Of a DNA stretch of 25,112 nt, positions 1,234-22,895 are shown piece after piece. The stretch's first letter is position 1; each line of letters begins with the position of its first letter. Origin of the DNA: a virus; the IMG/VR virus record IMGVR_UViG_3300027865_000043, positions 1 through 25,112 of that record, one strand, 5' to 3'. The notes under the pieces were generated by a model. That model had not been told where the DNA came from. It worked only from the letters and a program-made list of their open reading frames with translations, and ran no database searches. A program made the translations under genes and the position numbers.

Positions 1234-4200
1234 CTATGACACTGTTAGTGTCGGCTTCTTTGCCGTTGCAGTCGCACCCGGCTTGCTTCCCGTTGCAGTC
1301 GCTTCTGGCTTCCTGGCTGTCGCAGAAGCGAGCAGCAAATACCCAACTACCCCGCTCAACAGAATTGCGGCGTCGGGCGTGCTAGTTGCTGCCGCTATAA
1401 TTGCCGTGAGCAAAATCTCCTCAAACGACAGGGTTACATCGTCGGGCGTACTGATAGCCGCCGCGACTGCCGACGACAGTTCCCGAGTCACGAGCATTCC
1501 AATATCGTCCGGGGCGCTAGTGGCTGCTGCAATCGCTGCCAGCAGTTCCCTTGTGACGAGTATGCCTGCGTCGTCGGGGGTGCTCGTTGCAGCCGCAATC
1601 GCCGCAGCCAGTGCCTTGATAACGAGCAAGGTCGCGTCGTCTGGTGTCGATGTCGCGGTTGAAACCGCCGCAATCAATTCTCGGGTAACGAGCATTCCAA
1701 CATCGTCTGAGGTGCTCATTACAGCCGCGACGGTCGTCAGCAGTTCCCGAGTCACCAACATGCCAGCATCATCTGGGGTGCTCGTTGCAGCCGCAATAGC
1801 TGCTGTCAGCAGCTTGATGATAAGCAGGGCAACATCGTCAGGTGTGCTGGTAGCTGCTGCTATCGCTGAAGCTAATTCCCGAGTCACTATCAGGGCAGCA
1901 GCAGACGTGCTGGTTGCTGCGCTGGCGAGCGCTACCATCTCGCGAGTGACAAGCATACTCGCGGCATCAGATGTCGTGGTAGACCCTGCGATTATTGCAA
2001 GTAAGAAGATCCCAGTAAGCAGCGTGGCGTCGTCTGGTGTTGAGGTTGCCGCTGCTATCGCTGCCAGCATCTCGCGAGTGACTAGCAGGGAAGACGAATC
2101 TGGGGTGGTCATCGCCGTTGCTATCGCAGACACCAGTTCCCTCAAAACGAGCAGACCTGCATCATCTGGCGTTGTCGTTGCAGCAGTTATTGCCGCTGCC
2201 AGAGCGTGGATGAGCAACAGGGATGCCGAGTCGTTTGTACTGGTAGCGGCTGCAATCGCTCCAATAAACTCTCGGGTCTGCAACAGGAGGGCGCTATCCG
2301 TCGAAGAGATGGCAGCCGATATTGATGTGACAAGCGCCCTGCCCATCAACATGCTAACGGAATCGTTCGTGCTGGTTGCTGCTGCCACTGCGCCCAGTAG
2401 TTCGTGGATGATGAGCAGGGCCGATGCGTCGGAAGTGCTGGTTGCTGCTGCCACTGCTGCTACCAGTGGGCGCGAAACAAGCAAGTCGGCTGCGTCGGTC
2501 GCGCTTATTGCACTTGTGATCGCCGCTGCCAGTTCCCGAGTGACGAGCATACTTGCATCGTCTGGGGTCGTCGTGCTTGTGGAAATCACGCCTAGCAGTT
2601 CCCGAGTGACGAGCAGGATTGCCACGTCAGGTGTTGTCGTGCTTGATGAGATGGAGGCTATAAGGTTCTTGATAATGAGCAGGACAACATCGTCTGGGGT
2701 AGTAGTTGCAGCAGCCATCGCCGCGAGCAGTTCCCGCGTGACCAACATCGCAGGGGCGTTTGTGGTCGTTGCAGTTGCAACTACTGCGGCAAGGAGTCGG
2801 GTAACGAGCATGGTAGGGGCGTTTGTGGTGGTAGCAGTTGCGATGGCTGCGAGCAGTTCCCGCGTTACAAGCATCGCAGGGGCGTTGGTCGTCATTGCTG
2901 CTGCCATCGCTGCCAATAGCTCGCGAGTGACTAGCATGTCGGGGGCGTTTGTGGTGGTTGCTGCCGTTATTGCGGCTGACAGTTCGTAATCCTCACCTGT
3001 CGCAGGGGCCAGCCCGATCATTATGGAGGTCCAGATCTCAGATCCGCCACCACCGACAATTGATGCGGAGACATACGTCGTAGCCGACGCAGGCGTCCAG
3101 CCGATCCAGGCGCTCCGCTCTTGGCCGTCATCGTAGGAGAAAAGTTCCTCGTCACCCGATGCGGGATGGTGGGTTGTGTTGTCTGAATTCCCGGCGAACA
3201 TTACCGCCCAGGAATCTGCCGGAAGGGCTGACCAGTTTTGGTTAGTTCCCGCGTCAATGGTGGAATCATAGCCCGTGGTGTGTTTTTTGTAAGTATCGCT
3301 CGGATAGCTTTGATCAAAGCCGTCCATTTGGACTACCTGGAGGACTAGGCCGTCTGAACCCGAGTCGATAATAACCTTTACGTTGTAGGTACCGGCGTCG
3401 GGGAAGTTCGCTTCTTTAATATAGGCGATGGTGGTATGGCTACCGTGGATTCCTGTGTCCTCCTCTTCTGCGTAGATCGTGAAGGCGGTTTCGTCTCCTC
3501 CGCCTGGGTCGAGTGTTACGGACACTACGTCGTACTCGTCCATGCAAGACACATTGGCCCAGAGGAAACGGTTCGGGCCGTTTGTGATGGTTATAGAGGC
3601 GGTAACGTCGGAAGCACCGACGTCAGCAGCACCAGCATAGTCGCGGAAGCCTGGAGCTTCAATAAAATCAACGTCAGGGACGAGGAACATGTAGCCCCAG
3701 GAGTACTCAGCCGCGGCGGATTCGCCAAAGCAAACGGTGGAAGCGTCGGGATCTGTATAGCCAATCCACGAGTTGGTGTCATAGGTCGCATTGACGACTT
3801 GCTCTAAGAGTTCTGTGCAATCTGTAGCCGCTGTGAGGGCAGTATCGTCGTCTACGTGAACCACGCCAATTACGCGGCAATTGGCATATCTGGAGTCGCT
3901 AAGATCAATGGGTGTTTCGAAGTATCCGCTGTCTTGTTCGGTGCCTGATGAATACTCTTCCCACTCAAGGCGCGGAAATGGAAAATCCTGATGTACATCA
4001 TCCATCTGAAAAACGTGTAGGATCTTCCACCACGCGCCCGTTTCGTCTATTGTTGCAGTAACATCGTAGTCGCCGGTTGGTGGGAAATCGGCTTCTTTGA
4101 TATAGCCAAGATACCCTCGGTTGTCTACGTTATTACCAAAATACAAATGTTTATGCAGTGTGAATTCGGTTTCGTTTGCGCCGCCCAAATCCAATGTGAT

Positions 4201-4356
4201 GGCCGAAACCTCTTCAGTATCGTAGCAGGTGGCAACAGCAAAAAGCATCCGATTAGAACCAGCGGAGATGGTGAGATCTGCCGCAGTTACGTCTGTGTTC
4301 GAAGAATTGGTATCGGTTCCGGTCGCAGTGCCTTGGAATGACGGAGTAGTCGGCAT
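1234..4356 (-). CDS. Giant tail fibre/adhesin: two N-terminal beta domains plus about 24 repeats of 22 residues
   Basis: This 1040-residue protein has three parts. Residues 1-231 and 237-454 are two copies of one globular beta domain; compare NRMLFAVATCYD with NRFLWANVSCMD, and GYIKEADFPPTGDYDV with AYIKEANFPDAGTYNV. Residues about 458-998 are a tandem array with a 22-residue period, typical unit MLVTRELLAAIAAATSTPDD. The last about 40 residues contain repeated K-P-x-A-T-A-T words. The regular alternation of small and hydrophobic residues suits a beta-solenoid or elongated stalk. It more likely forms a fibre shaft carrying N-terminal head domains than an enzyme, as no catalytic motif is seen. 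The ATG overlaps the previous stop as TAATG, with AGGG upstream. The exact role is inferred from its place between tail-tip genes. Confidence 0.75.
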   Translation of the reverse strand: MPTTPSFQGTATGTDTNSSNTDVTAADLTISAGSNRMLFAVATCYDTEEVSAITLDLGGANETEFTLHKHLYFGNNVDNRGYLGYIKEADFPPTGDYDVTATIDETGAWWKILHVFQMDDVHQDFPFPRLEWEEYSSGTEQDSGYFETPIDLSDSRYANCRVIGVVHVDDDTALTAATDCTELLEQVVNATYDTNSWIGYTDPDASTVCFGESAAAEYSWGYMFLVPDVDFIEAPGFRDYAGAADVGASDVTASITITNGPNRFLWANVSCMDEYDVVSVTLDPGGGDETAFTIYAEEEDTGIHGSHTTIAYIKEANFPDAGTYNVKVIIDSGSDGLVLQVVQMDGFDQSYPSDTYKKHTTGYDSTIDAGTNQNWSALPADSWAVMFAGNSDNTTHHPASGDEELFSYDDGQERSAWIGWTPASATTYVSASIVGGGGSEIWTSIMIGLAPATGEDYELSAAITAATTTNAPDMLVTRELLAAMAAAMTTNAPAMLVTRELLAAIATATTTNAPTMLVTRLLAAVVATATTTNAPAMLVTRELLAAMAAATTTPDDVVLLIIKNLIASISSSTTTPDVAILLVTRELLGVISTSTTTPDDASMLVTRELAAAITSAISATDAADLLVSRPLVAAVAAATSTSDASALLIIHELLGAVAAATSTNDSVSMLMGRALVTSISAAISSTDSALLLQTREFIGAIAAATSTNDSASLLLIHALAAAITAATTTPDDAGLLVLRELVSAIATAMTTPDSSSLLVTREMLAAIAAATSTPDDATLLTGIFLLAIIAGSTTTSDAASMLVTREMVALASAATSTSAAALIVTRELASAIAAATSTPDDVALLIIKLLTAAIAAATSTPDDAGMLVTRELLTTVAAVMSTSDDVGMLVTRELIAAVSTATSTPDDATLLVIKALAAAIAAATSTPDDAGILVTRELLAAIAAATSAPDDIGMLVTRELSSAVAAAISTPDDVTLSFEEILLTAIIAAATSTPDAAILLSGVVGYLLLASATARKPEATATGSKPGATATAKKPTLTVS
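1363..2985 (-). repeat. Tandem array of about 24 units of 66 bp in the fibre gene
   Basis: Within the 1040-aa fibre gene the coding sequence repeats every 66 bases, occasionally 63 or 69. Units share the word MLVTREL or LLIIK-like variants, followed by an Ala/Ile block, then TSTPDD or TTTNAP. The four units nearest the N-terminal domains (about 2985-2710) use 21 residues and end in TTNAP, while most later units use 22 and end in TPDD. This suggests two rounds of expansion. On the plus strand the recurring words gttcccgagt and acgagcat mark the units. The array also creates a long antisense open frame that is not a gene. Confidence 0.9.
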
Positions 4357-14648: not shown

Positions 14649-14983
14649 ACCTGCTCCCTGCAAGCCAAACTGATATAGGTGTCAAGGAATTCCTCTTCCA
14701 TCAACACCTTCTCAATATCATACGTGTGCACCACTGAATGACGGTCGGTGAATTGGATTCGTAGCTCGGATGTGATGTCCTGCCTATATCTAATGACCAC
14801 CCAATAGCTGATGTCCTGGGCTTGGATCATGCCCTCTGGATACTCACGAGCGGAGGCAGGTGAGATGCTGGCCCACGCATCGTATTTTGTAGCCCAGGTA
14901 TAGACCGGCTCACCGACTGCATTCTGGGCCTCCGTCTTCTCTTGGATGACGATACGATGTCTCAATTCGCCAGGTCTAGGCAT
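14645..14983 (-). CDS. Head-tail adaptor (SPP1 gp16 / Phage_H_T_join-like), 112 aa
   Basis: The start PGELRHRIVIQEKTEAQNAV is followed by VYTWATKYDAWASI, a central VVIRYRQDITSELRIQF and the closing IEKVLMEEEFLDTYISLACR. The pattern GxLRHRIxIQ, then W-A-x-I, then IRYRxDI is the hallmark of the head-tail adaptor family that seats on the connector ring. Length is normal. The gene overlaps the gene before it by eight bases and the gene after it by four, so it is part of a coupled run. Confidence 0.9.
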   Translation of the reverse strand: MPRPGELRHRIVIQEKTEAQNAVGEPVYTWATKYDAWASISPASAREYPEGMIQAQDISYWVVIRYRQDITSELRIQFTDRHSVVHTYDIEKVLMEEEFLDTYISLACREQV

Positions 14984-15563
14984 ACGCTAGACTCCAATGA
15001 CGATCTGGGCTTAGCATGTCCTTGACCGTGTAATCTAGTTCTTTGCCAATTGACCCGACCAAGTATGGTTGTCGCCACTCGTAGAAATGCGTGACCAACA
15101 AGCGAACGGCCTGACGGACCATCTCTGACACATCACCATGATCGTCACCGTAGCCGCAAACAAAACGAATTGTCACGGCGTCAGCTTCTCGCAATGTGAC
15201 AGTGGGCAAAGTGGCAGACGACTTGACTGTAATGCGGCCTGGGGTGCCAGCACTGACGATATAATTGGCTGCGTTCCAAGTGGCCTCGTTGTCATCCTCG
15301 TCATAATACTTCCACGAGGTTATCGATTGCAGGGGCGGCTTGGGCAGCCAAACAGGACCACTAGGCCAGGTGTCCAGGTACATATCAATCGATTGGGTGA
15401 TGAGGGCCAGGCCAGAATATGATTCACACTTCTTACGTGCTGCCTTGATGTAGGAGGCTATCAGGGCGTCATCCGCGGAGGTGTCCACGCGCATGTGGTT
15501 CTTGGCATCCACAACCGATATCGGTTCCTTAATGGGGGCTGTTGCTTTATCCAGGCGCATCAT
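14976..15563 (-). CDS. Head-tail connector, gp6-like, 195 aa
   Basis: The N-terminus contains PISVVDAKNHMRVDTSADDA and IASYIKAARKKCESYSGLAL, the sequence expected for the gp6/gp15 connector family (I-S-L-x-E-x-K-x-H-L-R-V-D, then D-D-x-L-I-x-x-Y-I-x-A-A-R). A central beta part (residues about 60-135) includes PLQSITSWKYYDEDD. The C-terminal helix (MVRQAVRLLVTHFYEWRQP) is also typical. Members form the ring beneath the portal. Start: two successive ATGs at 15563 and 15560; the first overlaps the previous TGA as ATGA. The length agrees with the family. Confidence 0.9.
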   Translation of the reverse strand: MMRLDKATAPIKEPISVVDAKNHMRVDTSADDALIASYIKAARKKCESYSGLALITQSIDMYLDTWPSGPVWLPKPPLQSITSWKYYDEDDNEATWNAANYIVSAGTPGRITVKSSATLPTVTLREADAVTIRFVCGYGDDHGDVSEMVRQAVRLLVTHFYEWRQPYLVGSIGKELDYTVKDMLSPDRHWSLAYA

Positions 15564-15766
15564 GTTTTCTTGGCCCTCGTCCGTCTCTTAGGCTTGGCCC
15601 TGGTAGCCTTCCGTTTAGGCTTGATGGTTGCAGCCTCAGGCTCAACCTCCATCGCCTCAACCAACCCGGCTCGCAACCAGTCCACGCCCTCGGGAAGCTC
15701 AAACTCGTCGCCAGCACTGATGTGTATTCCATTTCCACCGAAGGTCGTTAACGCTCGCACTCTCAT
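15560..15766 (-). CDS. Small protein with Lys/Arg-rich tail in the head region, 68 aa
   Basis: This 68-residue protein has two parts. Residues 1-44 (starting MRVRALTTFGGNGIHISAGD) look like a small beta fold with an LPEGVDWLRAGLVEAME helix; similar short phage proteins occur just upstream of gp6-like connectors. Residues about 47-68 are a basic tail with KPKRKATRAKPKRRTRAKK, more than half Lys or Arg. The tail suggests binding to DNA or to an acidic partner in the head. GAGGTG lies four bases before the ATG. The stop overlaps the connector start. Confidence 0.75.
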   Translation of the reverse strand: MRVRALTTFGGNGIHISAGDEFELPEGVDWLRAGLVEAMEVEPEAATIKPKRKATRAKPKRRTRAKKT

Positions 15767-15794: not shown

Positions 15795-16460
15795 TCATGC
15801 GAACACCTTCTGGTTGATCTTCTTTTGTTGCCAGGCTGCCAACTCAACGCCGGTTAGCGATGGTGCTAATTCCTTCAGAACGGCCAGGCTGGTCGTAATA
15901 TCTTCCAGGCTGTAAGTGTCAACGTGCAGGCCCATGCTCCGCAACCAGCCAGGCATGAAATCATTGGCCTCAACCAGCAACCTGGCATCTCGTGGCAGGC
16001 CTGAGATTTCAGCATATAGGCCAAGCTTATGACTTGCCGCCTTGGACGAGATGGCTCCAGACCATACAGGCGACTTAGTTTGCAGTGAATGCAATTGCTT
16101 ATCCTTATCTCGTGTCAGATAGATTATCCGCCTAATTGGAACGACCTCATTCACGGCTGGCAGCAGTTCAGGGGGCCAGCTATTTGCATCGCCTCCCGAG
16201 CCTGGTTGCTGGCGAATGAAGGTCCAATAGCTGCTGAATATGGCATCGTCTGGCTCGTACAAGTCCAGCACGTACCAGGGCAAGCGTGTGATTTCCGTTC
16301 GCATCTCATGATGCCAGGTAGCCCCAGGCACGGAGTTGAGTACCGTTGCCAACCACTTGGTGCCACAATGCCCTGAGCCTGCTATTACGTCAAACACGTT
16401 CGGCCATCCAGTCGGAGCACACCTGCTCTCGCTCATGATAATGGGTTGGGCGAAACTCAT
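15795..16460 (-). CDS. Sulfotransferase-like (P-loop) protein, 221 aa
   Basis: The sequence shows the two nucleotide-binding words of PAPS-dependent sulfotransferases. A P-loop-like motif, IAGSGHCGTKWLATVL (residues about 26-41), corresponds to G-x-x-R/H-S/C-G-T-x-x-L. Later comes IIYLTRDKDKQLHSL (about 112-126), with Arg117 and Ser125 spaced like the 3'-phosphate-binding residues. The protein is shorter than many sulfotransferases. It lies directly behind three glycosyltransferases, so a sulfated sugar is an attractive product, but this is inference. The start is uncertain: ATG 16460 has GGAG upstream but overlaps the previous gene by 71 bases; ATG 16436 and GTG 16397 (overlap eight bases) are alternatives that keep the P-loop. 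Confidence 0.7.
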   Translation of the reverse strand: MSFAQPIIMSESRCAPTGWPNVFDVIAGSGHCGTKWLATVLNSVPGATWHHEMRTEITRLPWYVLDLYEPDDAIFSSYWTFIRQQPGSGGDANSWPPELLPAVNEVVPIRRIIYLTRDKDKQLHSLQTKSPVWSGAISSKAASHKLGLYAEISGLPRDARLLVEANDFMPGWLRSMGLHVDTYSLEDITTSLAVLKELAPSLTGVELAAWQQKKINQKVFA

Positions 16461-17031
16461 AACCCACTCCGTGCCTATCCATTGGCATCAGGCGGGCGGA
16501 TAGTTCCTTGCTCACCCAGTGCATTGGCTCACCGTTTCCAATGTCCAATGACCAGTAAATGTCGCTCGCAGATGGATGCCTGGGCATCCTGACACGACGA
16601 GCCACTTCAGGCCTGAACAATTGAAAGTGACCCTTGAGGATGGATGCGTAACCGTCCTGGCTCACGATGTCAGGTGCGTAATGAGGGGCGTCTGGCTGCA
16701 ACCCTCGCCCAGCCACACCCAGCAGATGGGAAGGGCACTTGTCGCCGTGAATCTGGATCGCATCTTCCAAATAGTGATCGTCACCCACCATGAAATCATC
16801 ATCCTGAAACATGACGAACTCCGTCTCGGGCCGACCAGCGAACACGTATCGCGCCCACTCACCAGCGTTCCAGGGGATGATAATTGGCTTGTCAGCGCCA
16901 AACGTTTGCACATCGTGATTATTGATCAGCCACACCTCCACAGGGATCGTCTGATTGCGAAGGGATTGCACTATCGCTGACATGTTTAGTTGTCGTTGAT
17001 ACGAGAGTAGGATAGCAGTTACAGCAACCAT
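16390..17031 (-). CDS. GT-A glycosyltransferase-like protein (third of three), 213 aa
   Basis: The beginning VAVTAILLSYQRQLNMSAIV resembles the first strand and helix of family 2 glycosyltransferases. VWLINNHD follows, and then FVMFQDDDFMVGDD, which carries the DDD metal/nucleotide-sugar motif (residues 77-79). A later acidic site, SASDIYWSLDIG (Asp157), is at the usual place of the catalytic or acceptor-side region. No membrane segment is present, so it is a soluble cytoplasmic enzyme. The start ATG shares a base with the TAA of the preceding glycosyltransferase gene (TAATG). Donor and acceptor cannot be predicted. Confidence 0.8.
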   Translation of the reverse strand: MVAVTAILLSYQRQLNMSAIVQSLRNQTIPVEVWLINNHDVQTFGADKPIIIPWNAGEWARYVFAGRPETEFVMFQDDDFMVGDDHYLEDAIQIHGDKCPSHLLGVAGRGLQPDAPHYAPDIVSQDGYASILKGHFQLFRPEVARRVRMPRHPSASDIYWSLDIGNGEPMHWVSKELSARLMPMDRHGVGYEFRPTHYHEREQVCSDWMAERV

Positions 17032-17567
17032 TATTCTGGCGCTCCTCCGCTTATCCTCTGAACGGCTGCCAGTTGCTCATCCAGCCAGACAACTTCAGGG
17101 CCATCCTGCCAGATGGAGTCAAGGAAATAGTAATCGCCACACCGTTCCTGGGCGAAGGCGTGGATATGATCGGCCCAAATGTCTTGCCTGGTAATGAAGT
17201 CACACGACCCAATATGGCCCAGTTTCGGCTCCTTCTCCCACACAGTAGCATCGGGCAGCAGCCCGAACCAGTCATGCTGGGCGCGGAAAACGACAACGCC
17301 TGGCTTGTCTTTTGCAGCCTGCTTTAATAGGGCGATGGCCTGCTCCGTACTGAGCATGTCATCATCATCAAGGATGAGAACATACTCGCCTTCCGGCATG
17401 GCCCACTGCAATGCAGCATTGGCCCATCCAACACCACGCCCCTCATCGTCCTCGATCAGGATGTGTTCAAAGTCCTGATCGGTTTGCATCTCCAACGATT
17501 CCACGTTCTTTGCCATCATCCCAGGTCGTTTGGGATGGCATCGCGTCACAACACTTAAGAAGGCCAT
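17031..17567 (-). CDS. Family 2-like glycosyltransferase (second of three), 178 aa
   Basis: The opening FLSVVTRCHPKRPGMMAKNV and VESLEMQTDQDFEHILIEDD is a good match to the N-terminal nucleotide-binding half of GT2 enzymes (S-V-V-T-R, then S-L-x-x-Q-T, then D-x-E-x-I-L-I-x-D-D). The DxD region is GEYVLILDDDDMLSTEQ (Asp67-70). Residues 112-170 are shorter than usual, with CDFITRQDIWADH, so the acceptor part is minimal. It overlaps the first glycosyltransferase gene by 13 bases, with GAGG just before its ATG. The small size suggests a phage-adapted enzyme. Target unknown. Confidence 0.85.
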   Translation of the reverse strand: MAFLSVVTRCHPKRPGMMAKNVESLEMQTDQDFEHILIEDDEGRGVGWANAALQWAMPEGEYVLILDDDDMLSTEQAIALLKQAAKDKPGVVVFRAQHDWFGLLPDATVWEKEPKLGHIGSCDFITRQDIWADHIHAFAQERCGDYYFLDSIWQDGPEVVWLDEQLAAVQRISGGAPE

Positions 17568-18196
17568 AGCACCTCGCCATCTTCTCGCTTGTGTCCGCAG
17601 ACAACCCTGGTGTCAGCCATCATGCTGTAATTGGCAGTATAGGCATCGTTGGTAAACCACGTGTCGCAGTGGACGCCAGGATTGTTCGTGATGCGGAAGG
17701 GGAGATCCTCCAACACCTGGCGCTTGATCAGAACACAACCGAGACCAGCACCCGAACAGGGTACGATGTCCTTGGATGGAGGCCACAAGCCCCGGACACT
17801 GAAACTCTCGCCAATGTTGAGGGCCTTCTTTCCAGCATACTTGTCGTCAGCGTAATAGCGCTCGAACAGGTTAACGACATGGGTTTGCCTGAACACGTAC
17901 ACCCCATATGCAATGTCCACATCCAATGCCCATAATCGTTGCAGGGCATTGGCAGGGGGTATGATGTCACTCTCGATTACGAGCATGGCATCATACCCAC
18001 CAGCCAGGAACGTCTCACGACCTCGTTGGTATTGATGATGGTGATTACGAATGCCGGTCTTTCGGCCATCCCCAGGCAATGGGTTGTCGCGCTGAAAGAC
18101 ATGAGTAATTGGCCCATGCCAATCAAGGGCCAGAACTGCATCAATGGTCTCCGGTTCTAACCGATAGACCGGCGTAAACACCATCACGTCATCCAC
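17555..18196 (-). CDS. GT-A glycosyltransferase-like protein (first of three), 213 aa
   Basis: The N-terminus MDDVMVFTPVYRLEPETIDA reads like the first strand of a GT-A fold. AMLVIESDIIPPANALQRLW carries the acidic ESD motif (residues 75-77) followed by the Pro pair typical of such enzymes. Near the end, GVHCDTWFTNDAYTANY and RVVCGHKRE supply Asp178 and His202, as expected for the catalytic-base and metal-ligand region. The start is GTG at 18196, which shares its first base with the stop of the capsid gene (TAGTG), so it is translated by coupling to the most abundant head protein. Substrate is not deducible. Confidence 0.8.
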   Translation of the reverse strand: MDDVMVFTPVYRLEPETIDAVLALDWHGPITHVFQRDNPLPGDGRKTGIRNHHHQYQRGRETFLAGGYDAMLVIESDIIPPANALQRLWALDVDIAYGVYVFRQTHVVNLFERYYADDKYAGKKALNIGESFSVRGLWPPSKDIVPCSGAGLGCVLIKRQVLEDLPFRITNNPGVHCDTWFTNDAYTANYSMMADTRVVCGHKREDGEVLWPS

Positions 18197-19428
18197 TAGG
18201 CGCTCGGGTGCACACCGAAGCCGATGGCTTCAGACTGCAAAACGCCATAGTCAATTCTAAACATGTAGTTAAGAATCACCTCGCCATTGGCTGCCCTTGT
18301 GTAGGGGTCCCTGATAATGGAGAAACCAGGGGCCTCGTACATGCCGACATAGTTCCAGTTGCCAAAATAGAGCGACTTGGCGGATGCCGCCGTCGCGCCC
18401 GACTTCTGGCTATACTTGACCGGGAACCCTAGCAAGGAAGGGCCAGCCTGGAATCCTTGCTGGTTGTCAGCGTAGCGACGAACGTTTGCGTCATCCAGCA
18501 AAACGATCTCGCCATGCACGGAGCGCTTCATCACCCAGGCAACAGACCCGCTATCGTCCAGATATGCGGCTATATTGTCGTTGTAGGTGACAGGTTCCAA
18601 CTCATCCACTGCGATCACTGTTGCACTGGAGAACGTCTTGAGCGTTGCACCATTGGCAGCCACTTCGGTCAACAGTAGGCTGTTACGTGTTTTAGCCATG
18701 CCGCGCCCGATGAAATCTTCCAAGAAAGTGAGTAGGCGGCTTTCTTCGTCTTCCATCAGTTCAACGGTTAGATCCACCTTCTTTGTGTACTTGACGAGGG
18801 TCAGCGTAACCTTGGTCACTGCCGGAGCGTCTCGGTCGTAGGCCCCAGATTCGGCAGTACTCACGAACTCGCCATCATCCTCATTGTCAACAGGCACATC
18901 CACTGCCGTGCCAACGCCGGGAACGGATCGCACGCCAAGGCCGTTAGTCAGATCCATCTCATCGCGTCGGGCTATGATGCCGTTGTAATGGCCAGTAGGC
19001 ACCAAGTCACCACCATCACCAGCGGTCGTGATGTTCATGGTGGTATCATTGCTGGCTCGCTTCTCAGGCCCAAGACGGATGCTGTTCTCTCCATCCTGAA
19101 TATGTGATACTCCGCCCATGTCGCCATGCCTGATGAACGCCTTCATAGCGTTCGGCTCATTATCACCTGGGTTGGTGATAATGGTGGGGGCTTGGCGAGT
19201 CGTTGGTTCCGTGACAGGAGTCGGCGCAGGTTCGGATGGGCGCCCTGCTCGCTCTTCCAAACGCTTGGCGCGTTCTTCCAATTGGGCAGCCTCGTCCATA
19301 TAGCCCTTGTGCTCAGTGGTCTCCTCATCAGTCAGGCCGCGATCCTCACCCTCAGCGGCATCCACTATGGCATCGGCCTTGTCTAAAAGCTTGGAGCGCT
19401 GTTGCCTCAGTTCTCTTGCGTTCTTCAT
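18196..19428 (-). CDS. Major capsid protein, HK97 fold, 410 aa
   Basis: Residues 1-62 are a charged coiled coil (LRQQRSKLLDKADAIVDA, then AQLEERAKRLEERA), followed by a Pro/Thr linker to about residue 90. This is the N-terminal delta/scaffolding domain that the prohead protease normally removes. The mature part begins around residues 95-130 and shows the usual capsid pattern: AGDGGDLVPTGHYNGIIARR, then KYTKKVDLTVELMEDEESR, WVMKRSVHGEIVLLDD, GPSLLGFPVKYS and LYFGNWNYVGMYEAPGFSII. The length is normal for fused-scaffold HK97 capsids. GAGGT lies eight bases before the ATG. It follows the protease gene by six bases and precedes the glycosyltransferases with an overlapping stop/start. Confidence 0.93.
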   Translation of the reverse strand: MKNARELRQQRSKLLDKADAIVDAAEGEDRGLTDEETTEHKGYMDEAAQLEERAKRLEERAGRPSEPAPTPVTEPTTRQAPTIITNPGDNEPNAMKAFIRHGDMGGVSHIQDGENSIRLGPEKRASNDTTMNITTAGDGGDLVPTGHYNGIIARRDEMDLTNGLGVRSVPGVGTAVDVPVDNEDDGEFVSTAESGAYDRDAPAVTKVTLTLVKYTKKVDLTVELMEDEESRLLTFLEDFIGRGMAKTRNSLLLTEVAANGATLKTFSSATVIAVDELEPVTYNDNIAAYLDDSGSVAWVMKRSVHGEIVLLDDANVRRYADNQQGFQAGPSLLGFPVKYSQKSGATAASAKSLYFGNWNYVGMYEAPGFSIIRDPYTRAANGEVILNYMFRIDYGVLQSEAIGFGVHPSA

Positions 19429-22281: not shown

Positions 22282-22310
22282 AGTCTAGCAGATCACCGAT
22301 TCTCTGTCAA
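22282..22310 (-). promoter_or_regulatory. Promoter-like sequence, sigma-70 type with extended -10
   Basis: On the minus strand, TTGACA (22310-22305) is a perfect -35 box. A 17-base spacer leads to TAGACT (22287-22282), which matches TATAAT at four of six places and is preceded by TGC, an extended -10 element. It overlaps the 3' end of the nuclease frame. It is the only promoter-like sequence noticed in this tightly packed operon. Confidence 0.5.
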
Positions 22311-22689
22311 TTGCCCTTGATCCGTAAGGTACATCTTTTCTTCGGGTGGTAGCTGGGTATTGTTGTCTCCCGCATATCGGTCGAAAAGCATCGGGCGTAC
22401 CCCTGATGCCTGAACTCTGATGCGGTATATGTTGGACGCCATTGGTAATCTCCTCTATTTGCTTACCTGACAGATGGAACCACTCGTTGCGCACTTCCGT
22501 TTGACAGTGGGCGAAAAGACGATGCAGCCGTTCTTCCTGGGCCTCATCTCCTTCTATTGTGCTCACTACGCTGAGTCGTCTCGGATTGCCCGTTTGCAGT
22601 TCTGCCAGCCGGTCACTAATGTCACGACTTGTATATCCAATTTTGTAATAATCAGTCCCATCCATTCGTATCACATACACCACCTCCAT
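22285..22689 (-). CDS. GIY-YIG-like (T5orf172/MUG113) nuclease domain protein, 134 aa
   Basis: Residues 1 to about 82 form a recognisable domain: VVYVIRMDGTDYYKIGYTSR carries the GIY/YIG-equivalent words YVI and KIG. Then come ISDRLAELQTGNPRRL and EERLHRLF, and the closing EVRNEWFHL, with the Glu-Trp-Phe typical of the T5orf172/MUG113 branch. Members are small endonuclease-like proteins found in phages and mobile elements. From residue 83 on the sequence no longer looks like the family. It lies over a different frame (22442-22293) that looks more protein-like, so this end may be an artefact of a deletion. Start: ATG 22689 (TGATG overlap) or GTG 22692. Role in packaging or DNA cutting is unproven. 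Confidence 0.7.
   Translation of the reverse strand: MEVVYVIRMDGTDYYKIGYTSRDISDRLAELQTGNPRRLSVVSTIEGDEAQEERLHRLFAHCQTEVRNEWFHLSGKQIEEITNGVQHIPHQSSGIRGTPDAFRPICGRQQYPATTRRKDVPYGSRAIDRESVIC
22293..22442 (-). CDS. Short overlapping frame, possible truncated gene, 49 aa
   Basis: Inside the 3' part of the nuclease frame another frame starts at ATG 22442 with AGGAG seven bases upstream. It reads MASNIYRIRVQASGVRPMLF, then DRYAGDNNTQLPPEEKMYLT, and ends DQGQLTENR. The strand-then-turn pattern and PPEEKMYL word look like the natural beginning of a larger protein; the frame stops after 49 codons. It starts exactly where the conserved nuclease domain ends. Either this is a real small gene overlapping the nuclease tail, or the first part of a longer gene lost by deletion. 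No family is named. Confidence 0.5.
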   Translation of the reverse strand: MASNIYRIRVQASGVRPMLFDRYAGDNNTQLPPEEKMYLTDQGQLTENR

Positions 22690-22895
22690 CACCTCGTTTT
22701 CTCTGGCAGCGTCGTTTTACGCAACCGTCCATTCCTCACCAGCAACCTGTCAATATAACGCAACCTCATAATAATCACCGCCCTCTCGTGTTCCATCAAA
22801 TCCAGATATTCGGCCATTGGCAGGGCCATCGGCCTGGCCTGGCCTTCGTCATCACCATCAGCCTCCTTGCGGGGTAATAACCGCTTGACCGTCAT
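22689..22895 (-). CDS. Small hypothetical protein between terminase and nuclease genes, 68 aa
   Basis: This is a 68-residue charged protein: a basic start (MTVKRLLPRKEADGDDEG), then a helix MAEYLDLMEHERAVIIMRLR, and a basic end RNGRLRKTTLPEKTR. The helix could be a dimerising or DNA-binding element. The ATG overlaps the large terminase stop as ATGA and the TGA overlaps the next start, so it is an integral part of the operon. It is not recognised. Its position invites comparison with small terminase-associated proteins. Confidence 0.65.
   Translation of the reverse strand: MTVKRLLPRKEADGDDEGQARPMALPMAEYLDLMEHERAVIIMRLRYIDRLLVRNGRLRKTTLPEKTR

Follow-up and report, generated by a model that had tools for sequence, protein, structure and literature searches.

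The virus record IMGVR_UViG_3300027865_000043 (IMG/VR), analysed here as a window of 25,112 bases, carries four overlapping reading frames between the gene for an HK97-type major capsid protein and a small gene followed by the head-tail connector gene. These frames encode three putative glycosyltransferases (GT1, GT2 and GT3) and a sulfotransferase-like protein (ST), and our analysis ties the first of them, GT1, to a short tail at the C-terminus of the capsid protein. As read, the gene order is small and large terminase, a GIY-YIG-type gene, portal, protease, capsid, GT1, GT2, GT3, ST, a small protein, connector, and more neck and tail genes. The capsid gene, the cassette and its downstream border are arranged as follows.

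18196..19428, minus strand: major capsid protein, HK97 fold, proposed acceptor (PF05065, 3.3e-20; phrog_10, 5e-34; TIGR01554, 9e-36)
18199..18210, minus strand: capsid C-terminal tail His-Pro-Ser-Ala, read from the sequence; proposed O-glycosylation site at Ser codon 18202-18204
17555..18196, minus strand: GT1, predicted GT-A glycosyltransferase of A197 type, proposed first-sugar enzyme (AlphaFold2 model, PDB matches, capsid linkage)
17031..17567, minus strand: GT2, family-2 glycosyltransferase, proposed extension enzyme (PF00535, 3.7e-5; homologues beside GT1 in many relatives)
16390..17031, minus strand: GT3, probable family-2-type glycosyltransferase, proposed extension enzyme (matches of its homologue in L239; DDD motif)
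15795..16460, minus strand: ST, putative remote sulfotransferase superfamily member, proposed to sulfate a glycan with host 3'-phosphoadenosine-5'-phosphosulfate (PAPS) (AlphaFold2, hhalign, R117-x7-S125; homologues in L234, L237 and L239)
15560..15766, minus strand: small head-module protein of phrog_2616 (8.5e-6), between ST and the connector
14976..15563, minus strand: head-tail connector, downstream border of the cassette (PF05135, 1.4e-9; phrog_442, 7e-24)

L numbers denote the stretches with which the window was compared. The capsid stop codon TAG (18196-18198) and the GTG start of GT1 have one G in common (TAGTG). GT2 begins at 17567, ahead of the end of GT1 at 17555, giving a 13-base overlap; TAATG at 17031-17033 is common to GT2 and GT3; and GT3, ending at 16390, overlaps ST, starting at 16460, by 71 bases. 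The coordinates and overlaps given by a first-pass annotation, made from the sequence alone, proved exact, with its last overlap of "at least eight bases" being these 71. This long overlap is probably real, because the "MSF" start of ST is kept in a homologous GT2-GT3-ST triad in L239. An assembly artefact is unlikely to explain the arrangement, since L002, another assembly of this virus, shows 99.98% identity over 12 kb. All four cassette proteins appear soluble, with no membrane segment in any of them, and the cassette is part of the late head operon, with no integrase next to it.

GT1 is a predicted GT-A enzyme close in structure to a viral glycosyltransferase

Direct matches of GT1 were weak and fell among PHROG glycosyltransferases (e.g. 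phrog_12406, 2e-4), and a direct homologue search in the annotated phage collection returned one weak cyanophage match only. We utilized AlphaFold2 with 45 homologues to predict the structure of GT1, obtaining a model with a predicted local distance difference test (pLDDT) value of 93.2 and a predicted template modelling (pTM) score of 0.90. The best PDB matches of this model were GT-A glycosyltransferases, and GT1 is predicted with high confidence to be one of them. The first-pass annotation had called the protein a glycosyltransferase; the model and the structure search placed it within the GT-A fold rather than outside it.

The nearest solved structure was A197 of Sulfolobus turreted icosahedral virus (STIV; Foldseek E 1.8e-10). 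By VIA-align 2, GT1 and A197 aligned with Z 19.9 and a root-mean-square deviation of 2.1 over 166 residues at 21% identity, compared with Z 16.6 for the next-best structure. A197 was also the only match of the GT1 profile among PDB sequences (E 0.008). After A197, the best structural matches were protein-acceptor enzymes, namely collagen galactosyltransferase (COLGALT1) and LH3. The acidic DxD-type motif of GT1, E75-S-D77, aligns with the DED of A197; D77 is invariant and E75 is present in at least 90% of the 45 homologues, and a catalytic metal-binding role is predicted for them.

In five relatives (L149, L156, L159, L165 and L171), GT1 carries the small head protein of family phrog_2616 as a C-terminal fusion, hinting that the small protein brings the enzyme to the capsid protein. 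N-terminal extensions of GT1 (L010, L014, L110 and others) were also considered as phrog_2616 domains; they found no support from hidden Markov models, and only the five C-terminal fusions stood.

GT1 travels with the capsid gene while its partners are exchanged

We scanned IMG/VR with the GT1 alignment, blind to gene context, and obtained about 80 loci; with one more from an Anaerolinea genome, 61 remained after near-copies were removed. GT1 was downstream of the capsid gene in all 57 non-redundant loci with a capsid gene in view, directly adjacent to it in 36 of these and within 3 kb in 56. Where a connector was in view, GT1 lay upstream of it in 37 of 38 loci. The Anaerolinea sp. locus (L176) has an integrase on one side and chromosomal genes, proA/proB among them, on the opposite side, and we therefore read it as a prophage of a Chloroflexota bacterium. 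A direct search of the annotated phage collection with the capsid protein gave no homologue. In one relative, a probable homing-endonuclease gene, recognised by eye, stands between the capsid gene and GT1 (L029:5987-7162).

The genes accompanying GT1 vary by phage. They include an RmlD-like reductase, family-2 glycosyltransferases, a hexapeptide-repeat transferase, MptE-like proteins, several methyltransferases, among them the CmcI/rhamnosyl O-methyltransferase type, and a UDP-galactopyranose mutase (PF03275, 5e-55). Several relatives have GT1 without GT2, GT3 or ST. The mutase gene lies between capsid and connector at L010:7110-8120 and L022:7486-8622, suggesting a galactofuranose-containing virion glycan in these two phages.

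The capsid C-terminal tail covaries with GT1

The capsid protein of the window ends in ...GFGVHPSA, and H-P-[S/T]-[A/G]-COOH is the end of nearly all GT1-linked capsid proteins. Among 43 non-redundant capsid proteins from loci with GT1, position -2 was Ser in 32 and Thr in 11 and nothing else, His at -4 and Pro at -3 were present in 42, and position -5 was variable.

We examined this covariation by scans from three starting points: GT1, the tail DNA and the capsid protein. The reverse scan, which used a DNA pattern for A-x-G-Y-G-x-H-P-[S/T]-A-stop, yielded 54 stretches, of which 52 were capsid genes, followed by GT1 in 43 cases. The other nine comprised one phage found six times with an MptE-like gene replacing GT1, two stretches with another glycosyltransferase, and one contig ending at a GT1-like start. 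In L191, the replacing gene (2609-3430, 274 amino acids) is MptE-like by eye only, without a significant Pfam match, and the capsid protein keeps an HPTA tail.

For the capsid-only scan, the best 80 of 274 capsid relatives gave 53 usable non-redundant proteins, with L154, L160, L171 and L174 left out. GT1 preceded the connector in 31 of the 33 with the tail (one of them HPSV) and in none of the 20 without it (Fisher 1e-12, uncorrected for ancestry). The 20 GT1-less homologues end, for example, in GYGTQA, YLIQHT or QQATA. In the capsid tree, GT1-less L021 and L015/L017 are nested within the GT1-bearing group and have altered tails, which suggests two losses of GT1, each accompanied by a changed tail. 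No further open frame in the GT1 loci ends in an HP[S/T]A-type tail, and the tail tube protein of the window does not do so either. The first-pass annotation had named the capsid or the tail tube as the simplest target; for GT1, the results favour the capsid over the tail tube.

The pairing could also arise if one capsid subfamily had the tail as a structural trait and GT1 were inherited along with it as a passenger. Capsid protein and GT1 are indeed largely co-inherited, and the covariation statistics take no account of that ancestry. However, GT1-less homologues at about 44-55% identity have other tails, one phage with an MptE-like gene at the GT1 position retains the tail, and Ser and Thr interchange at the same position, so that we find this explanation improbable.

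Two further explanations direct the enzymes away from the virion. The cassette might modify the host surface when expressed, leading to serotype conversion or superinfection exclusion, which is a frequent role of phage glycosyltransferases (PMC12619734) and would suit the prophage state of the Anaerolinea sp. relative. Against this, none of the four soluble-looking proteins is encoded next to an integrase, their genes belong to the late head operon, and GT1 is bound to the capsid gene and its tail motif; we give this explanation little chance. Alternatively, the phage DNA could be glycosylated and sulfated as protection from restriction: phage DNA modification based on glycosyltransferases and sulfotransferases is mentioned in PMC10829341, and DNA glycosyltransferases in PMC12619734. 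Yet no base-modifying gene was recognised within the 25-kb window, and GT1 is linked with the capsid gene and the C-terminal tail encoded there rather than with genes of replication, making this explanation even harder to credit. The exclusion of cell-wall and DNA modification by the first-pass annotation agrees with these results.

A different glycosyltransferase, of GT-B type and unrelated to GT1, is encoded between capsid and connector at L325:2183-3223 (PF13439, 6e-10), with a similar gene in L328. The capsid proteins of L325 and L328 end in ...YMKMKT, possibly representing a second pairing of tail and enzyme; L344 has the KMKT tail without the GT-B gene.

GT2, GT3 and a putative sulfotransferase form a recurring triad

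GT2 passed the curated cut-off of PF00535 with 24.2 bits (cut-off 23.3), and its homologues adjoin GT1 in many relatives. GT3 itself had no Pfam or PHROG match and remained below the PF00535 cut-off. Its homologue in L239 reached PF00535 at 3.9e-4 (20.8 bits, under the cut-off) and matched the GT2 profile at 8.5e-7. Together with its DDD motif, these sequence matches indicate that GT3 is probably the same kind of enzyme as GT2, of family-2 type. Direct searches for homologues of GT2 and GT3 in the annotated phage collection gave nothing.

ST had no Pfam match of its own, and PF13469 searched against the window also gave none. Homologues in L234, L237, L238 and L239 were obtained by a P-loop pattern scan; the one in L234 scored 13.8 bits against PF13469, under the cut-off of 27. 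AlphaFold2 predicted a P-loop fold for ST with a pLDDT of 70. We then used hhalign to compare the ST profile with two sets from Anaerolineae genomes, one of 24 sulfotransferases and one of 20 adenylate kinases. It matched the sulfotransferases at 96.6% (E 6e-10) over 224 columns that take in the P-loop and R-x7-S, versus 0.06% for the adenylate kinase control. The profile comparison thus separates sulfotransferase from adenylate kinase where the fold search alone could not. Sulfotransferases bind the 3'-phosphate through an Arg and a Ser eight residues apart; ST has R117 and S125 (R-x7-S), and the homologues in L234 and L237 show the same spacing. The phosphosulfate loop ends in G-T-x-W-L, lacks the Walker-A lysine, and is invariant in four sequences. 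From these sequence features we infer that ST is a remote member of the sulfotransferase superfamily, with sulfation as its proposed activity. Profile model and P-loop fold bear out the sulfotransferase-like P-loop call of the first-pass annotation. No match to ST was found by its profile among PDB sequences or by direct search in the annotated phage collection. ST was also absent from 298 Anaerolineae genomes, a weak negative given that this search had no positive control.

The GT2-GT3-ST triad recurs at L239:2-1453 (minus strand), its genes overlapping in a similar way, in a phage stretch that is unrelated and lacks GT1. There it lies directly behind a tail-terminator gene, and ST is cut by the contig end. 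This intact recurrence in a GT1-less stretch indicates that the triad travels as a mobile three-gene unit. Elsewhere, an ST homologue follows three glycosyltransferase genes in a module judged by eye to be a Mu-type head module (L234:604-4650, minus strand), and another lies inside a glycosyltransferase/methyltransferase cluster of a 109-kb phage (L237).

The mobility of the triad raises the question of whether the cassette comprises two systems, in which GT1 alone would act on the capsid tail and the triad would have a different target protein in the virion, for instance a neck protein or the tail tube. The position of the L239 triad right behind a tail-terminator gene, the relatives having GT1 without GT2, GT3 or ST, and the glycosylation of the tail tube besides the capsid in mycobacteriophages all favour such a division. 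In the window, however, the triad stands directly behind GT1 and the capsid gene, GT2 homologues adjoin GT1 in many relatives, and neither the tail tube protein nor any other open frame ends in the tail. We consider two separate systems rather unlikely, and infer that the triad extends and sulfates the capsid glycan or acts on another virion protein.

A model for capsid glycosylation

The likely role of the cassette, in our view, is to add a short glycan to the capsid of the phage itself, the first sugar being placed on the tail by GT1 and the extension and sulfate being added by the other enzymes. The first-pass annotation had proposed virion decoration, most simply of the capsid, and three lines of evidence support it: the capsid linkage in 57 of 57 loci, the covariation of tail and GT1 in the three scans, and the A197-like structure. 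The covariation and the structure together suggest that GT1 acts on the capsid tail, where it probably O-glycosylates the penultimate Ser/Thr. GT1, made right after the capsid protein and putatively through translational coupling with it, would take a sugar from a nucleotide-sugar of the host and attach it to the hydroxyl of Ser, or of Thr in some relatives, at the penultimate position. Judging from gene order and family, GT2 and GT3 would add further sugars, and ST would use host PAPS to cap or edit the chain with sulfate; of all the steps in this scheme, sulfation is the least certain. Because GT1 is kept and the other enzymes are exchanged, the outer glycan would differ between phages at a fixed attachment point. 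In relatives, the swapped parts would be galactofuranose supply by the UDP-galactopyranose mutase, the deoxysugar-type reductase and the methyltransferases.

Several observations weigh against this model. The tail is lacking in several of the most distant GT1 relatives (L153, L161, L163, L166, L168, L169 and L175). The covariation p-values, 1e-12 to 1e-16, disregard shared ancestry, and only two separate branches of the capsid tree are without GT1. Conservation of the tail could also reflect a role in capsid structure. The triad may have a different acceptor, either in GT1-less L239 or in the window. Finally, adenylate kinases and sulfotransferases were tied as fold matches of the ST model, at Z 8-10.

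A broader proposal is that the HP[S/T][A/G] tail is a dedicated O-glycosylation signal, read by a capsid-travelling A197-type enzyme across many uncultured phages, and that the glycan here is sulfated, as the first known on a phage virion; we put this forward tentatively, with somewhat more doubt than belief. Among phages, particle glycosylation has so far been demonstrated for no more than a few mycobacteriophages. With the sequence rule of a capsid tail plus an adjacent GT1, capsid glycosylation would become predictable for uncultured phages, and one candidate residue is named. The pattern suggests that the attachment enzyme is kept and the remaining sugar-building kit is swapped. If the tail is a portable signal, it would also give laboratories a means of coating protein shells with sugar. 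A literature search of partial coverage found no report of a sulfated phage virion glycan; judging by the literature searched, a sulfated capsid glycan, if true, would be a novelty among phages.

Other features of the window

A gene of the T5orf172/MUG113 (GIY-YIG) type lies at 22285-22692, between large terminase and portal. A 1040-amino acid protein is encoded at 1234-4356, with imperfect repeats of about 27 residues filling its second half; a distant relative is found in L011 (7101-8669), between GT2 and connector. A plus-strand open frame of 603 amino acids (1178-2989) was taken as antisense of this repeat protein.

Comparison with known systems

Serotype-conversion and DNA-modifying phage glycosyltransferases lie with lysogeny or replication genes. 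GT1 is likewise phage-borne but is locked to the capsid gene. ST resembles the sulfotransferase superfamily (PF13469/PF00685, TPST, Cpz8) in the 224-column profile match with its P-loop and R-x7-S, and P-loop sulfotransferases are among its structural matches; it differs in scoring below the tested Pfam cut-offs.

A197 is an essential STIV glycosyltransferase proposed to glycosylate the STIV capsid protein B345 (PMC10551542; PMC4187194). Like GT1, it is a minimal viral GT-A enzyme proposed to act on the capsid protein of its own virus. Unlike the window phage, STIV is an archaeal virus with a double-jelly-roll capsid protein, and the acceptor of A197 is itself unproven.

For Che8, Corndog and Myrna, it is established that phage enzymes glycosylate the virion (Freeman et al. 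2023, via PMC12363180, PMC12619734 and PMC11256854). Published work places the Che8 glycans at the C-termini of the capsid and tail tube proteins (cited in PMC12619734 and PMC12363180) and the Corndog glycans at the capsid C-terminus. By sequence, Gly-Ser is the C-terminal dipeptide of both these Che8 proteins. In Corndog, genes for an O-methyltransferase and three glycosyltransferases stand between portal and protease, and capsid modification was proposed for them by the authors (PMC4351075); as in the window cassette, these genes lie within the head module. With the mycobacteriophage type of virion glycosylation the window has in common phage-encoded glycosyltransferase genes in a virion operon and a hydroxyl residue at the capsid C-terminus linked to a glycosyltransferase.

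The window phage differs in being of another lineage, related to a Chloroflexota prophage, with its cassette between capsid and connector. Its tail signal is HP[S/T][A/G], and it has an apparently different glycosyltransferase plus a sulfotransferase-like protein. As far as the tail tells, its C-terminal signal is confined to the capsid, without a tail-tube copy. Because the tail tube lacks the same C-terminal signal, we do not class the cassette as a mycobacteriophage-type system. In kind, the system proposed for the window is the same as mycobacteriophage virion glycosylation, in another phage group.

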